Shown here one piece after another: positions 14,805 to 23,780 of a stretch of DNA of 40,767 nt; position 1 is the stretch's first letter; every line of letters begins with the position of its first letter. The notes beneath the pieces are model-generated. The model was not told the origin of the DNA. It saw only the letters and a list, made by a program, of their open reading frames with translations, and ran no database searches. The translations under genes were made by a program, and so were the position numbers. Source of the DNA: Enterocloster aldenensis (lineage in GTDB: Bacteria > Bacillota > Clostridia > Lachnospirales > Lachnospiraceae); contig NZ_QVEX01000029.1 in assembly GCF_003434055.1 (NCBI RefSeq), positions 1-40,767 on the forward strand. The letters are read 5' to 3'.

Positions 14805-14828
14805 TGAGGATTGGAGGAAGAAAGTATC

Positions 14829-15221
14829 ATGGCTAACGCAAAATTTTATGGAACAGGCAGAAGAAAAAAATCCATCGCCAGAGTATATTTAGTACCAGGT
14901 ACAGGTAAGGTTACAATCAACAAGAGAGATATCGATGAGTATCTTGGTCTTGAGACTTTAAAAGTAATCGTACGTCAGCCTTTAGTTGCAACTGAGACCA
15001 CTGACAAATTCGATGTACAGGTTAATGTCCGCGGCGGCGGCACAACAGGACAGGCCGGCGCAATCCGTCACGGCATCTCCAGGGCCCTTCTTCAGGCAGA
15101 CGCTGACTTCAGGCCGGTTCTGAAGAAAGCTGGTTTCTTAACAAGGGACCCAAGAATGAAAGAAAGAAAGAAGTACGGCTTAAAGGCTGCACGTCGTGCA
15201 CCACAGTTCTCCAAGCGTTAA
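14829..15221 (+). CDS. rpsI: 30S ribosomal protein S9
   Basis: Predicted 130-residue S9, whose C-terminal tail reaches the P-site tRNA. Hallmarks: [20 protein letters not shown], the [18 protein letters not shown] segment, and the C-terminal [17 protein letters not shown] ending in the conserved SKR. The start at 14829 (MANAKFYG) has GGAGGAAG upstream; an in-frame ATG at 14811 would add a non-conserved extension. It lies 24 nt after rplM and is followed by a strong terminator. Confidence 0.98.
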
Positions 15222-15252
15222 TCACGTTTCAGGACAGAATATGGCAGGACAA

Positions 15253-15285
15253 AACCTTCCAGGGGATTCCCTGGGAGGTTTTTTT
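15253..15285 (+). terminator. intrinsic terminator of rplM-rpsI
   Basis: 12-bp stem (AACCTTCCAGGG with CCCTGGGAGGTT), GATT loop, followed by a seven-T run. Confidence 0.92.
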
Positions 15286-15289
15286 GTGG

Positions 15290-15295
15290 TATGAT
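15290..15295 (+). promoter_or_regulatory. possible extended -10 promoter of the ATPase/HNH pair
   Basis: TGG directly before TATGAT (15290-15295) is an extended -10 element just downstream of the rpsI terminator; the -35 position (TTCCCT) is poor. This is the only promoter-like sequence I see before the ATPase gene. Confidence 0.35.
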
Positions 15296-15379
15296 GGATG
15301 AAAAGGCTGGCAAAAATCATCTCGTAATCCTGAGCACCAGGCGATTCCGGGAGTACACTGATATTTTAAGGAGGGAACA

Positions 15380-16633
15380 GTGAACCAATTATTTATTTCA
15401 GCTTTGACAATAGAGAAGGTCCGGCATTTGGAGGATATCCGCATTCCATTGTCCAAAGACAGAATGAAGCATCTGATATTTACCGGAAGGAATGGAAGCG
15501 GTAAAACCAGTGTTTTGGATGCCATGGCAGGATTTTTGAATGCGGTATCTACAACCAATGACCCTGTGGAAGCGCAAGATTATTTAAATCAAGATATAGA
15601 TAATCTGGAATATCAGATTAAAAATGGAAAATCCGGTAATGAAATTGCAGATATAAGGAAACGCATAGAGCATTTTAAGCTAAGGATAGAACGGGCAAAG
15701 CAAGGAATCGATATGCAATTGAATTATCCATTGAATGAGATACGCAGTATGTATGAGGCCGGCGGATATATCATTGCCTATTATAAAGCCGACCGTATAT
15801 TCCGCACTGAGATTCCAAGACATGTAGAAAAGGTGGAATTGAAGGAATACTATTCAATTTCTGATACGCCACGCCAGGATTTTGTTAAATATCTGCTGGA
15901 TTTAAAGATGACCCAGGCTCTGGCGGCAACGGGAGGTAAGACAGAAAAGGCCGATGTAATCAAGACCTGGTTTAATAAATTCGAGGATCTATTAGGCAGG
16001 ATTTTTGAAGATGGCTCCTTAAAGCTGAACTTTGATGAAGATACCTTTCAATTTACGATTTGTGAAACAGGTAAGGAACCCTTTGACTTTAACAGCCTTT
16101 CCAGTGGATATGCAGCGGTTTTGGATATCATTGTTGATATTATCATCCGTATGGAAAAGCGGACCGGCAGAAGCTTTAAATTCGAAATGCCGGGAATTGT
16201 CCTCATTGATGAAATTGAGACCCACCTCCATCTGGAATTGCAGAAGAGGATTCTGGATTTATTGACAACTATATTTCCCAATATACAGTTTATTGTTTCG
16301 ACCCATTCTCCATTTATTTTGAACAGTCTGGAGAATGTGGTGATTTATGATTTGGAAAACCATCTGCTGGTGGAGGATGGCTTAACAGATGTGCCTTATG
16401 ATGGAATTGTTGAGGGATATTTTAATGTGGATAAGATGTCCGCTATGTTAAGGGAAAAGTATGAAAGATACAAAATGCTGGTGAGAAAGAAGAATCTTTC
16501 CGATGAAGATATTGCTGAGATTGCTAAATTGGAAATGTTTTTAGATGAAATACCGGATTATCTGGCTTTAAATATATCAACCGAGTATAAAGGTTTAAAA
16601 TTAGATTTCGAAAGCCGGGAGGATTTATTATAA
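15380..16633 (+). CDS. AAA/ABC-type ATPase of a Septu-like two-gene defence pair
   Basis: Predicted 417-residue soluble P-loop ATPase of the AAA_21/SMC-like type. Walker A is GRNGSGKTS (36-44), a charged coiled-coil-like stretch covers about 70-110, an ABC-type signature LSSGY lies at 240-244, Walker B is IVLIDEIE (273-280) followed by HLH, and the switch His is H309 in STHSP. There is no TOPRIM domain, so it is not an OLD-type nuclease; nuclease activity would come from the HNH protein encoded next. The GTG start at 15380 follows AAGGAGGG. Its stop shares one base with the HNH start. The pair is visibly more AT-rich than its surroundings (a 60-nt line here is 38% G+C, an ecfA2 line 62%), consistent with transfer. 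An alternative is a DNA repair or RloC/PrrC-like ATPase. Resemblance to PtuA is by architecture only. Confidence 0.85.
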   Translation: MNQLFISALTIEKVRHLEDIRIPLSKDRMKHLIFTGRNGSGKTSVLDAMAGFLNAVSTTNDPVEAQDYLNQDIDNLEYQIKNGKSGNEIADIRKRIEHFKLRIERAKQGIDMQLNYPLNEIRSMYEAGGYIIAYYKADRIFRTEIPRHVEKVELKEYYSISDTPRQDFVKYLLDLKMTQALAATGGKTEKADVIKTWFNKFEDLLGRIFEDGSLKLNFDEDTFQFTICETGKEPFDFNSLSSGYAAVLDIIVDIIIRMEKRTGRSFKFEMPGIVLIDEIETHLHLELQKRILDLLTTIFPNIQFIVSTHSPFILNSLENVVIYDLENHLLVEDGLTDVPYDGIVEGYFNVDKMSAMLREKYERYKMLVRKKNLSDEDIAEIAKLEMFLDEIPDYLALNISTEYKGLKLDFESREDLL

Positions 16634-17292
16634 TGGTAAAGATAGAACGCAGTTATCCGGCGCCGGAGTCATTATTAAAGGAGGCTGCGAAAATTAATGG
16701 AAGCTACGCTCAACCCGATGTGGTAGAAAGGCTGAAACGTGATTTTCATAACAAATGCTATATTTGTGAAATGAAGGAATTGCAGGACCCGCAGATAGAG
16801 CATCTGCTTCCCCATAAGAATGGCAGATATAAGGAAAGGGAATTTGATTGGGATAATCTTTTCTGGGCATGCGGACATTGTAATGGTGTAAAAAACCAAA
16901 GTAAGTATGATGACGGTATATTAGACTGTTGCAAAAGGAATCCGGAAGAAGCCATTATCTTTGACCTAAGAGAGGATAATGTCTCAGTCATTCCCAAAAA
17001 TCAGGAAGACCCTGAAGCCGGGTTGGCTGCCCGGCTTGTGGAAGAAGTATTTAATATGAGAAATACAGGGATGCGTATATACAAAAGTGAAATGCGTTTA
17101 AGGGCATTACAGGAAGAGATGAATGTTTTGTACACAAAATTGGAAGCGCACGCAGAGAAACCTGAATCCAAACAGATTATGCGGACATTACAGGCACTGC
17201 TGAAAAAGGAAATGCCATTTGCCGGGTTCAAACGGCATTATGTCAGGGAGCGGCTGGATGTTTTTCCGGAGTTATCTGAGTATGTCCTATAG
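16633..17292 (+). CDS. HNH endonuclease of a Septu-like two-gene defence pair
   Basis: Predicted 219-residue HNH-family protein. A Cys4 zinc site and beta-beta-alpha-metal core are readable: CYIC (C42, C45), the catalytic-type EH pair in IEHLLPH (E56, H57), N75 in WDNLFWAC, and CGHCNGVKNQ (C80, C83, N84). The C-terminal half is helical and charged. The layout fits the TIGR02646/PtuB-type nucleases found beside AAA ATPases in Septu systems and in retron-associated effectors. The ATG uses the last A of the ATPase stop codon (TAATG), so translation is coupled and the two proteins probably form one complex. No reverse transcriptase or methyltransferase is adjacent, so it is neither a retron nor an obvious restriction-modification system. 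Confidence 0.82.
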   Translation: MVKIERSYPAPESLLKEAAKINGSYAQPDVVERLKRDFHNKCYICEMKELQDPQIEHLLPHKNGRYKEREFDWDNLFWACGHCNGVKNQSKYDDGILDCCKRNPEEAIIFDLREDNVSVIPKNQEDPEAGLAARLVEEVFNMRNTGMRIYKSEMRLRALQEEMNVLYTKLEAHAEKPESKQIMRTLQALLKKEMPFAGFKRHYVRERLDVFPELSEYVL

Positions 17293-17309
17293 TATCAGAT
17301 GTATTAATA

Positions 17310-17339
17310 TTGACTTATCAATAACTGCGTAAGTATAAG
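17310..17339 (+). promoter_or_regulatory. promoter-like sequence before the gene remnant
   Basis: TTGACT (17310-17315), 18-nt spacer, TATAAG (17334-17339), 21 nt before the remnant's ATG with a good GGAGG site in between. Confidence 0.5.
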
Positions 17340-17359
17340 GCAGGTCCGGAGGAATTACA

Positions 17360-17774
17360 ATGCGAAAAGAAGCGTCCATACAGGAGTGGAAGGATTTATA
17401 CCAGGCTGCCACTATAATTAAGGAACTTAAACCATGGGAGCATTTCTGGGACATGGATTTGATTGGGATTCAGGAAGGGAAAGAGGAGGATACCGTATTT
17501 TTCAGTGTTCTTGGAAGAGGGGGAGGCTGTGTCGGGTATGATCCTAAAAGCAGATATGCTGGGTCCGGAGGAGGACCCAAGGGCAGCCCTGGCAGAGAAT
17601 ATTGTAGGTTTTATCATGGAACACGGAGCCCCAAAGGAAATACGGGTTACCAATGTGATAGTGGAGTCGGTTCTTGAACACATCTGTGAATCAGCTGAAA
17701 TCAGACTTAGAAGGGTAAAACGCCTGTCTGGCCTGGATGGGTTCAGGAAGGAGATGGGACGGTTTACCGGATGA
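17360..17774 (+). pseudogene. internally deleted, frame-disrupted gene (DUF7309/DUF6930-like)
   Basis: Two reading frames make up one broken gene. The first (from ATG 17360) reads IQEWKDLYQAATIIKELKPW and DMDLIGIQ, resembling the N-terminal domain of a conserved hypothetical family. The second frame, +1 relative to the first, reads ALAENIVGFIMEHGAPKEIR and RLRRVKRLSGLDGF to the stop at 17774, resembling that family's C-terminal domain. They meet at a run of five G (17519-17523), where the N-terminal VLGRGGE motif would continue. In intact members, as I recall them, a long middle region separates these parts, so several hundred bases seem to be lost, with the frame lost as well. The promoter and ribosome binding site remain. 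Family naming is from memory and is tentative; the broken state is clear. Confidence 0.7.
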
Positions 17775-17776
17775 AT

Positions 17777-17819
17777 AAAAATACCCCTGGGCCTGGTGAA
17801 AGGCCACAGAGGTATTTTT
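17777..17819. terminator. bidirectional intrinsic terminator
   Basis: AAAAATACCCCTG pairs with CAGAGGTATTTTT around an inner GGCC...GGCC stem. A-run on the left and T-run on the right let it stop transcription from both convergent genes. Confidence 0.8.
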
Positions 17820-17841
17820 GGTTGTGTGATGATGCAATCTA

Positions 17842-18297
17842 TTAACGTACCCCGAATTTGGTACCGCGTCTGATTGTGCCGTTACTGTTCCATTCTGTGT
17901 AGACGTATGGACCGCCGTCGGTGGTTCCGTTCTCAGTAAATTCATGGGAGCTGCCGTTAATGGTGCGGTTGCCGGTCTGCAGCTTCAGGCTGTTGTTGTC
18001 AAAATAATAGACATTGCCATTAATTTTCATCAGGCCGCCCTGAAGCTCGCCTGTATCGGCCGCATAATACCATGTCCCGTCTTTCTGAATCCAACCGGTC
18101 CTCATGATTTGGTCGGCGCCAAAGAAAAACCAGTGGTTCTTATAGTTGACCCAGTTGTTGGTGCAGTAGTCGCCGGAACCCCACTGGTATTTCATTCCCT
18201 GTGATGTGCTTACAAAACCGGCTGCAAATGATGTCATGGCGCTTCCTGCTGCCAGAGCCAGGGTCAGGGCAGCTGTTGCCAAATATTTCTTTCTCAT
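17842..18297 (-). CDS. secreted protein with cell-wall-binding (choline-binding-type) repeats
   Basis: Predicted 151-residue exported protein. Residues 1-25 are a signal peptide ending in TSFA-AG. The mature part holds aromatic-rich wall-binding repeats: WVNYKNHWFFFGADQIMRTG, then WIQKDGTWYYAADTGELQGG and KINGNVYYFDNNSLKLQTG, i.e. the GW/YY pattern of CW_binding_1 repeats. No catalytic domain is attached, so it may simply coat or modulate the wall. The C-terminus (EWNSNGTIRRGTKFGVR) is not recognisable. A strong AAGGAGGG precedes the start. The gene has a MerR-type promoter upstream on the same strand, suggesting induction by a small molecule or stress (inference). Confidence 0.8.
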   Translation of the reverse strand: MRKKYLATAALTLALAAGSAMTSFAAGFVSTSQGMKYQWGSGDYCTNNWVNYKNHWFFFGADQIMRTGWIQKDGTWYYAADTGELQGGLMKINGNVYYFDNNSLKLQTGNRTINGSSHEFTENGTTDGGPYVYTEWNSNGTIRRGTKFGVR

Positions 18298-18348
18298 GAA
18301 AATTCCCTCCTTGCAGAATCTATTAAATGTATTGCTTTCAATAGCTGG

Positions 18349-18379
18349 ATTCTACACCCTGGAGTTGCTCCAAGGTCAA
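18349..18379 (-). promoter_or_regulatory. MerR-type promoter/operator (19-nt spacer)
   Basis: On the minus strand: TTGACC (18379-18374), a 19-nt spacer, TAGAAT (18354-18349). The spacer holds a 9-bp dyad, ACCTTGGAG, CAA, CTCCAGGGT (one mismatch), at 18376-18356. Over-long spacer plus dyad between -35 and -10 is the MerR-family signature. Confidence 0.7.
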
Positions 18380-18543
18380 TACAGTTAATGGATTTGTAAG
18401 GAAAATGGAAATTTAAAGTAACAATGTTAAAATCAGTAAAACCTCTAAATACAGTATTGCATAAATAATTGAATACTAGAGCCGTCACCATGGTTGCTGG
18501 CTGGATGGAGCACTATTACTTAAGGTGTTATTGCAGCTCTGCA

Positions 18544-21958: not shown

Positions 21959-22023
21959 AATGCCTTCTTTTTCCTGAATGCTGCTATCACGGGGATTGTC
22001 CCCTGTTCCATGGGTGTCCGTAT

Positions 22024-22053
22024 AAAAAATGCAGCCAGTATGTACTGGCTGCA
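22024..22053 (-). terminator. intrinsic terminator of hpf
   Basis: Perfect 11-bp stem, TGCAGCCAGTA with TACTGGCTGCA. On the minus strand it is followed by a six-T run (22029-22024). Confidence 0.85.
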
Positions 22054-22099
22054 GTCTTGTCCTTATTTGAAGGAAAAATCCTTACATCATCTTATATGG

Positions 22100-22630
22100 C
22101 TAGAATTCCGGTTCAATAAGGCCATAGGTTCCGTTCTTGCGTTTGTAAACAACATTGACCTGGTCCGTATCTGCGTTTAGGAATACATAGAAGCTGTGGC
22201 CCAGCATCTCCATCTGCAGGCATGCTTCCTCGGGAATGGTTGGCTTAATGGCAAACTTCTTGGTCTTGACAATCTGGATTTCATCGTCCTGTACTTCGTC
22301 CTCTTCCTCTATAAATGCCTGTGAGAAAGAGACTGCCGCCTGTTTCTTGTCAATCAGTTTCTTTCTATATCTCCGGATCTGGCGTTCAATAACCTCCTCC
22401 ACCAGATCGATGGATACGTACATGTCTGTACTGGATTCTTCTGCACGGATGGTATTGCCCTTAACCGGGATTGTTACTTCAATCTTCTGCCTGTCCTTCT
22501 GCGCGCTCAGCGCTACGATTACTTCGGTGTCCGGAGTGAAGAAATGTTCCAGCTTGCCTATCTTCTTTTCAACAGCAGCCTTCAAACCTGGAGTTACCTC
22601 AATATTTCGTCCTGTTATGGTATAACGCAT
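22100..22630 (-). CDS. hpf: long-form ribosome hibernation-promoting factor
   Basis: Predicted 177-residue protein that pairs 70S ribosomes into inactive 100S dimers in stationary phase or stress. The N-terminal domain (about 1-100) begins MRYTITGRNIEVTPGLKAAV and has the LEHFF and IEVTIP blocks of the YfiA/HPF family; the C-terminal domain (about 118-177) includes KPTIPEEACLQMEMLGHSF, FLNADTDQVNVVYKRKNGTY and IEPEF, the dimerisation domain found only in long HPF. The start at 22630 has AAAGGAG at 9 nt; the ATG two codons upstream would sit too close to that site. hpf just upstream of secA-prfB is a common clostridial neighbourhood. Confidence 0.95.
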   Translation of the reverse strand: MRYTITGRNIEVTPGLKAAVEKKIGKLEHFFTPDTEVIVALSAQKDRQKIEVTIPVKGNTIRAEESSTDMYVSIDLVEEVIERQIRRYRKKLIDKKQAAVSFSQAFIEEEDEVQDDEIQIVKTKKFAIKPTIPEEACLQMEMLGHSFYVFLNADTDQVNVVYKRKNGTYGLIEPEF

Positions 22631-22661
22631 AATCATCAACTCCTTTTCTTGAGATAGTGAC

Positions 22662-22690
22662 ATTATAACATATTTAGTATAAAATTACAA
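22662..22690 (-). promoter_or_regulatory. promoter of hpf
   Basis: Minus strand TTGTAA (22690-22685), 17-nt spacer, perfect TATAAT (22667-22662), about 30 nt before the start codon. Confidence 0.65.
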
Positions 22691-22906
22691 TCAGAACCTA
22701 TGAATTGCCTAACAATTTATCTTAATTTTTTATAAAAATAATCTTTGAATCAGGGGGATAACCATTGAATCATCAATAGGAACGGCCTTAAAATGTCAAT
22801 AGAAAAACATGTATTTTCTTCCGAAATATGAAAGTTTATCAGAAGTGTACAAAAATAAAATTTCTGTTAAGCCTGGGTAAAGTTTGAAGGCCAAAGCTTA
22901 TAAACT

Positions 22907-23021
22907 TGTGGATAATGTGGATAAGTCAGTGTATAACTATTTTTTGCCTTAAAATGGACAAACTGGGATGTGGATAACTTTGTGGGTAGTGTGCATAAAC
23001 TTCTGGGGATAATGTGGACAG
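22907..23021 (+). repeat. cluster of DnaA-box-like 9-mers
   Basis: Perfect DnaA boxes (TGTGGATAA, complement of TTATCCACA) lie at 22907-22915, 22916-22924 and 22969-22977. One-mismatch copies are at 22990-22998 (TGTGCATAA) and 23004-23012 (TGGGGATAA); two-mismatch copies at 22928-22936, 22981-22989 and 23013-23021. All point the same way, and several abut exactly with 9-nt spacing. They sit in the 517-nt gene-free region between hpf and bioY, whose left part (22690-22860) is AT-rich and otherwise featureless. Confidence 0.75.
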
Positions 23022-23105
23022 GTAAAAAATCGAACACATTTTTTGTGCAATGTGCTTGGTTGACCATAAGTGAGGCAAAAAAGTGGGGCGAATGGTGAAA
23101 GATGG

Positions 23106-23134
23106 TTGTTTAAATGAAAAAAAAGCAGTAGAAT
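23106..23134 (+). promoter_or_regulatory. possible promoter of bioY
   Basis: TTGTTT (23106-23111), 17-nt spacer, TAGAAT (23129-23134), 46 nt before the bioY ATG. I did not find a BirA operator. Confidence 0.45.
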
Positions 23135-23180
23135 AATGTTTATAGGTATTGCCTGACAATGAGACAGAGGAGAAAGAAAG

Positions 23181-23780
23181 ATGAATTATGAAAGCAGGGT
23201 TATGGCAGGGAGACGGGAAAAGGCAAAGGATTTAACGGTGTGCGGGCTGTTTTCTGCATTGATAGCAGTTGGCGCATTTATAAAAATTGTGATACCGGTG
23301 GGCGCTGACAGCATGAATTTTACCCTTCAGTGGTTTTTTGTACTGCTGGCAGGACTGTTGCTGGGGTCAAAGAGGGCGTTCCTAAGTGTGTCCACCTATC
23401 TGCTGATTGGACTTATGGGAATCCCTGTTTTTGCCCGGGGAGGCGGACCGGCCTATCTGCTCCGTCCCACCTTCGGCTTTTTGCTTGGTTTTGCATTGGC
23501 AGCATATGCCATGGGGAAAATCTGTGAGTGGATGCATTCCTCCAAACCAGGTACATGGATATTTGCGGCAACGGTTGGGTATGTGATTTATTATGGAATG
23601 GGTATTCTCTATTTTTATTTTATAACTCACTGGATTGTGGTAACGCCAAACACGGTTGGATGGGGAGCCATATTTGCGGTTTACTGCCTGCCCACCATGT
23701 TTCCGGACGGTGTGCTGTGTGTGCTTGCCATCATGGTGGCAGGGAGGCTGCGGCCTGTTGTGTCGCAGATACTAGGGTAA
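23181..23780 (+). CDS. bioY: biotin ECF transporter S component
   Basis: Predicted 199-residue membrane protein that captures biotin and uses the EcfA1/A2/T module for uptake. After a short cytoplasmic N-terminus come about six hydrophobic helices. BioY signatures include FTLQWFFVLLAGLLLG, YLLIGLMGIPVFARGGG and YLLRPTFGFLLGFALAAY, which contain the family's conserved Gly-rich and Pro-Thr-Gly-Phe positions. AGAGGAG lies upstream of the ATG at 23181; an internal Met8 is a possible alternative. No biotin synthesis genes are nearby, so the cell may rely on imported biotin. Confidence 0.92.
   Translation: MNYESRVMAGRREKAKDLTVCGLFSALIAVGAFIKIVIPVGADSMNFTLQWFFVLLAGLLLGSKRAFLSVSTYLLIGLMGIPVFARGGGPAYLLRPTFGFLLGFALAAYAMGKICEWMHSSKPGTWIFAATVGYVIYYGMGILYFYFITHWIVVTPNTVGWGAIFAVYCLPTMFPDGVLCVLAIMVAGRLRPVVSQILG

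Follow-up and report, generated by a model that had tools for sequence, protein, structure and literature searches.

The two overlapping genes at positions 15380 to 17292 of the Enterocloster aldenensis DNA that we analysed (contig NZ_QVEX01000029.1, 40,767 nucleotides; this whole stretch is called the window) very probably form an ordinary Septu type I anti-phage operon of a Lachnospiraceae lineage, with the defence role taken from their homologues. They are inserted behind rpsI, and the interval behind rpsI is strongly variable among genomes of the Enterocloster group.

Gene order and family assignment

The pair lies on the plus strand downstream of rplM and rpsI. The latter encodes ribosomal protein S9 (14811..15221; Pfam Ribosomal_S9, E = 1.1e-50) and is followed on the same strand by an intrinsic terminator with a stem of 14 pairs and then a T run (15251..15282). 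The gene ptuA (15380..16633) starts with GTG and encodes an SMC/ABC-type ATPase of 417 amino acids; AAGGAGG at 15368..15374, 5 bases upstream of the GTG, reads as its likely ribosome-binding site. The gene ptuB (16633..17292) starts with ATG and encodes an HNH endonuclease of 219 amino acids. The initial annotation had placed both open reading frames at these coordinates with a one-base overlap within TAATG, and this was borne out, as the ptuA stop and the ptuB start have one base in common. Its description of the genes as fused is right as to this overlap and wrong as to the products, which are two separate proteins; "overlapping" is the right word.

Both proteins matched PADLOC models of Septu type I nearly over their full lengths. 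PtuA aligned with PtuA1 (PDLC00268, E = 1.1e-125) over residues 3-414, corresponding to positions 2-407 of 411 in the model, and PtuB aligned with PtuB1 (PDLC00321, E = 1.1e-78) over residues 1-218, corresponding to positions 1-222 of 223. This confirmed the earlier suggestion, made from the domain pairing, that the proteins match PtuA and PtuB of Septu. Among the other profiles that had been named as relevant, AAA_21 matched PtuA (E = 6.3e-22), and the match of PtuB to TIGR02646 (E = 3.9e-9) stayed under the cut-off of that model. The window pair has the gene order of the PADLOC type I system (PtuA1-PtuB1) and likewise no reverse transcriptase; we saw no substantial difference between the two, and the pair is best described as a lineage inside the type. 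The alternative of a novel system, or of a minimal or divergent subtype with a compact ATPase, was rejected because the existing type I models fit both proteins end to end and the length of PtuA is typical. Indeed, the median length among the 120 best homologues is 416 amino acids for PtuA and 219 for PtuB, so the 417 residues of PtuA do not make it an outlier, and the best PADLOC model of PtuA is itself 411 positions long.

The motifs expected of an SMC-like ATPase are all present in PtuA: Walker A (GRNGSGKT, including K42), the LSSGY signature, Walker B (VLIDE) and STHSP. K42, S241-S242-G243, D277-E278 and T308-H309-S310-P311 were invariant across 22 aligned PtuA proteins. The reading of PtuB as a CxxC-EH-N-CxxC HNH nuclease held equally well, with C42, C45, E56, H57, H61, N75, C80, H82, C83 and N84 invariant in 23 aligned proteins. 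Within the 120 best homologues of each protein, Walker A, signature, Walker B and H-loop were found in 118, 119, 120 and 119 PtuA sequences, and the three HNH patterns in 118, 118 and 119 PtuB sequences. At E ≤ 0.001 we counted at least 5,491 PtuA-like proteins, within a scored set of the 7,999 candidates with most words in common, and 931 PtuB-like proteins. One entry has the same sequence as the window PtuB from end to end; the cluster that it represents, built at 90% identity, comprises 145 sequences from 84 contigs.

The ATPase-HNH pairing and its motifs are shared with the E. coli Septu of PDB entries 8ee4, 8eea and 8sux, the first two of which we take to come from strain ATCC 25922; identity is low, and the 8ee4 PtuA has 465 amino acids against 417 in the window. 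The same pairing and motifs are found in the E. coli Septu EcB88 (PMC13096335), again at low identity.

PtuB adjoins PtuA in 32 of the 37 rows examined (L001-L017 with flanks of up to 8 kb and L064-L083 with flanks of up to 1.5 kb; L077 repeats L017, so one locus is counted twice). The scan also took in L033, L034, L084 and L092, and because their matches are weaker or incomplete, L018-L032 and L035-L040 were left aside; one of the underlying searches gave at least 32 loci. No PtuB was seen in L006, L008, L015, L076 and L081, of which at least L008 stops shortly after the PtuA match, and the PtuB of L082 and L083, both counted among the 32, is weak or broken. PtuB had no match in 50,697 phage records, and PtuA matched 58 plasmid records, every one at less than 60% identity. 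Eight loci were found on contigs classed as viral in IMG/VR, and the best two (L033 and L034) are Septu-like PtuA-PtuB pairs at 36-37% identity.

Since the Pfam matches of PtuA are to generic families (AAA_21, AAA_15 at E = 2.5e-21, and SMC_N), and since the AriA model of PADLOC matches PtuA as well, one could suppose another kind of ATPase-nuclease pair, for example AbiLi or an OLD-like system, or a housekeeping gene of the SMC/RecF type. However, the AriA model reached 87 bits where PtuA1 reached 418, and the second protein of the pair matches the PtuB1 models. These profile scores already largely refute the supposition, which we consider scarcely credible. Membership in an established housekeeping family, which the initial annotation had raised as the outcome that would speak against defence, was rejected because of the patchy presence of the pair: at E = 1e-50 or better, ptuA gave 20 matches in 19 of the 397 genomes of the family, and the pair is absent from the site in congeners.

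Relation to retron effectors

The PtuA and PtuB proteins of retron I-A systems (Ec78 = Eco7 and Ec83 = Eco4; PDB entries 9kjx, 9nnb and 9e8z) belong to the same protein families as the window pair, and the available text of PMC11555353 describes retron and Septu PtuAB as related. This kinship lends some weight to an alternative in which the pair is an orphaned retron I-A effector that has lost its reverse transcriptase and msDNA and is left as an unregulated or dead remnant. The ranking of solved structures points the same way: the PtuA profile matched retron PtuA at E = 1.1e-22 and the E. coli Septu PtuA 8ee4 at E = 1.8e-17, and retron PtuA and PtuB both outscored E. coli Septu PtuA. The PtuB profile aligned with retron PtuB chains over the EH...W-NLF-CG core, and no PtuB chain of the E. 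coli Septu entries 8ee4, 8eea or 8sux was among its matches listed at E ≤ 1.

Profiles built for retrons, in contrast, fit the window proteins poorly. In PADLOC, PtuA scored 418 bits with PtuA1 and 132 with the retron I-A ATPase model, and PtuB scored 262 bits with PtuB1 and 43 with the retron I-A HNH model. Neither protein reached the cut-off of the NCBIfam equivalogs for retron Ec78 (128.3 bits against 500 for PtuA, 35.5 against 150 for PtuB). PtuA-like chains in the PDB, excluding 8ee4, AriA and the OLD family, are 542-552 amino acids long, with one of 456, and are thus longer than the window PtuA. Nor did we find the other parts of a retron. Pfam scans covered 38 of the 94 open reading frames of at least 100 amino acids in the window (E cut-offs of 1, 1e-10, 1e-8 and 1e-6) and contained no reverse transcriptase, methyltransferase or recombinase family, in agreement with the earlier remark that no retron reverse transcriptase or methylase is nearby. 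Rfam at gathering thresholds gave two tRNAs only in the window, although it may not model the msr RNA of I-A retrons.

The relatives show the same arrangement. We searched 25 genomes (the 19 with ptuA and six others) for reverse transcriptases and obtained hits in 19, but no more than two of the 20 ptuA matches have such a hit on their contig, in both cases more than 400 kb away. On the contigs available, no reverse transcriptase lies near any of the 20 matches, and a more distant one could have escaped because several of these contigs are short. Together with the profile scores, this disfavours the orphaned retron, which we regard as very improbable. The PADLOC authors use the name Septu type II for the arrangement that includes a reverse transcriptase (PMC8565338), and we assign the window pair to type I rather than to the retron type because none was found among the 38 scanned frames.

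The predicted structure of PtuA is consistent with the PtuA fold. The PtuA model was of moderate quality (pLDDT 75, pTM 0.68), and the 50 Foldseek hits listed for it all came from retron I-A or E. coli Septu PtuA/PtuAB entries, the best with E = 1.3e-13 and the query TM scores at only 0.38-0.51. The modelled fold of PtuA thus appears compatible with Septu and retron PtuA. The PtuB model was weak (pLDDT 69.5, with the HNH core predicted at low confidence), and its best Foldseek hit, from a retron effector complex, was not significant (E = 0.43).

The variable interval behind rpsI

Comparison with congeners by blastn and inspection of the sequence delimited a variable insert at 15223..17776 that is missing in congener G008, in which the homologue of window position 17777 onward begins about 80 bp after the end of rpsI. 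Among the 17 congeners searched, rpsI is present in 16; over rplM-rpsI, 15 genomes are 82-98% identical to the window, one has a partial match (85%) and the last has none. The closest congener, G013, is 98% identical at rplM-rpsI and 93% over 2.3 kb. Four of the 16 (G008, G009, G017 and G018) have an empty site, in which about 80-170 bp separate the rpsI stop from the conserved right flank; in G001 and G006 the site is nearly empty or the right flank is shortened. Because the site is empty in congeners such as G008, we regard ptuA-ptuB as an insert.

The initial annotation had already spoken of a low-G+C insert behind the rpsI terminator, and both the terminator and the insert were upheld. Its argument from base composition is less convincing. 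The G+C content is 0.38-0.40 over ptuA-ptuB and 0.44-0.54 directly upstream. A second low-G+C stretch at 22001-23500 (0.398-0.399) is, unlike the Septu insert, largely retained in congeners, and low G+C alone is therefore weak proof of insertion.

The remaining congeners carry diverse genes at the site. Septu is found there in G013 and G011, and type I-C cas3-cas5-cas8c-cas7 genes in G012 (L096:1415-7226), whose contig stops before the right flank and in which an open reading frame after the cas genes (L096 8008-9060) is presumably IS110-like. G014 has a D12 adenine methyltransferase that need not serve defence, since its PADLOC scores as a type II and as an orphan methyltransferase are about equal. 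G010 has an AbiLi-like ATPase, PemK and pieces with DNA similarity to the recombinases of G019, and G016 has PemK. In G019 there is a tyrosine recombinase together with a second open reading frame of similar sequence. Other open reading frames occupy the site in G007 and G015, and the contig of G020 ends 44 bp beyond rpsI and is uninformative. These assignments rest on profile scans of ten open reading frames in one scan and nine in another, out of a longer list. Defence- or toxin-antitoxin-like genes were thus seen in 6 of the 16 congeners and in the window, a count made at the rpsI site alone that hence implies no excess over other sites.

Another alternative is that the operon is a decayed or silent leftover whose genes are drifting and whose defence function is lost. 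Two observations fit such decay. The adjacent gene in the window, with Pfam domains DUF7309 (E = 1.3e-13) and DUF6930 (E = 4.1e-17), is a remnant on the plus strand (17360..17774) in two frames (17360-17677 and 17463-17774); its homologue in G013 is a single intact open reading frame of 337 amino acids, and relative to it about 602 bp are missing in the window, at an 8-base repeat. Furthermore, ptuB of G013 (L084:4351-5014) has a frame change near the HNH motif, which is either real or an assembly error, and because this nearest relative has an interrupted frame, Septu may be dispensable. G013 also has a run of 567 N between rpsI and ptuA. In the window, however, ptuA and ptuB are both intact, the catalytic motifs are retained and the ribosome-binding site is good. 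The ptuA genes of the window and G013 differ in 39 of 417 codons, 24 of them synonymously and 15 nonsynonymously, and 26 of the 42 base differences are in third positions. Overall, we consider decay unlikely, less so than a retron origin. A functional link between the DUF7309-DUF6930 gene and Septu was not supported, as the gene stands beside Septu only in G013 among the 41 loci scanned besides the window.

Signatures of an attachment site were seen in two other congeners. The last 50 bp of rpsI (15172-15221, plus strand) occur in an extra copy on another contig in 2 of the 16 genomes (G011:C6, L092:125-174; G019:C256, L094:2409-2458). The copy in G019 lies about 100 bp past the end of a recombinase gene, and the copy in G011 is directly followed on its right by Septu, beyond which comes the conserved flank. 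G011 and G019 are 93.6% identical over 296 bp comprising the rpsI end and the next 200 bp or so, and 74.5% identical over 157 bp comprising the 50-bp copy and the 107 bp that precede it. Such an arrangement matches that of a site-specific element integrated at the rpsI 3' end, with its pieces seen on separate contigs only. Elements with tyrosine integrases in the rpsI 3' end are known from streptococci (PMC4701971, as far as the available text goes), and G011 and G019 show use of the same gene end; the window insert differs from them in having neither an integrase nor a repeated rpsI end. A tree of PtuA from 37 chosen rows grouped the G011 protein with other genomes, apart from the window and G013, and we conclude that the two Septu systems at the rpsI site are separate lineages.

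The window Septu sits at an integrase target site and has no attachment repeat of its own. Allowing up to 11 mismatches (9 on the minus strand), a 36-base probe from the rpsI end matched the window a single time, and none of the 15 families of direct repeats of 12-22 nt over 15150-18400 derives from the rpsI end. The stretches of the G019 element that we compared are absent from the window insert except for the rpsI end itself, and no recombinase was among the 38 scanned open reading frames. Across the family, the rpsI end had a match in 292 of 397 genomes and, counted from the listing, two matches in 15 of 397; at most two candidates were scored per genome, and whole-gene duplicates or contamination may be among these 15.

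Excision of an adjacent element would yield exactly the arrangement seen in the window. The rpsI 3' end of Enterocloster might be a standing site of defence-gene turnover, in which elements enter time and again through tyrosine recombinases and excision or decay strands their defence genes within one short interval, the window Septu being such stranded cargo; we put this forward tentatively, at somewhat under even chances. The cargo would include Septu twice (the separate lineages above), type I-C CRISPR-Cas, a methyltransferase, and an AbiLi-like ATPase with PemK. We found no report of rpsI as a defence hotspot with an integrase in the openly licensed literature.

Proposed mode of action

For the Septu of E. 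coli ATCC 25922, phage DNA is reportedly the target. In EcB88, mutants of the Walker and H-N-H motifs lose immunity, infected cells show abortive-infection behaviour (more weakly when T6 is used at high multiplicity), and cleavage of tRNA-Tyr, in its variable loop, occurs only upon infection, according to the available text of PMC13096335. ATP-controlled release of the HNH nuclease would be expected of the window proteins because they retain the Walker and H-N-H motifs. By analogy with solved or tested homologues, PtuA would assemble into an ATP-binding oligomer in which PtuB is held and kept in check. Infection would then shift the ATP state or the oligomer and free the nuclease, and freed PtuB would cut nucleic acid and stop phage growth, probably at the expense of the cell. 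As to the target, we lean slightly towards tRNA, as in EcB88, rather than phage DNA, as reported for ATCC 25922, a weak preference that we draw from the fact that, among solved chains, PtuB finds only retron-type PtuB below E = 0.1. Phage data for the Lachnospiraceae lineage of the window were not found in the literature. The pair itself was probably acquired horizontally and placed at the 3' end of rpsI, which appears to be a target of site-specific elements in the genus.

Overall, our analysis adds one more member to Septu type I and not a new subtype. The Lachnospiraceae Septu may offer a test of tRNA versus DNA cleavage, which differs between the E. coli examples, and the interval from rpsI to the next conserved gene is a concrete place to seek further defence genes in the genus.
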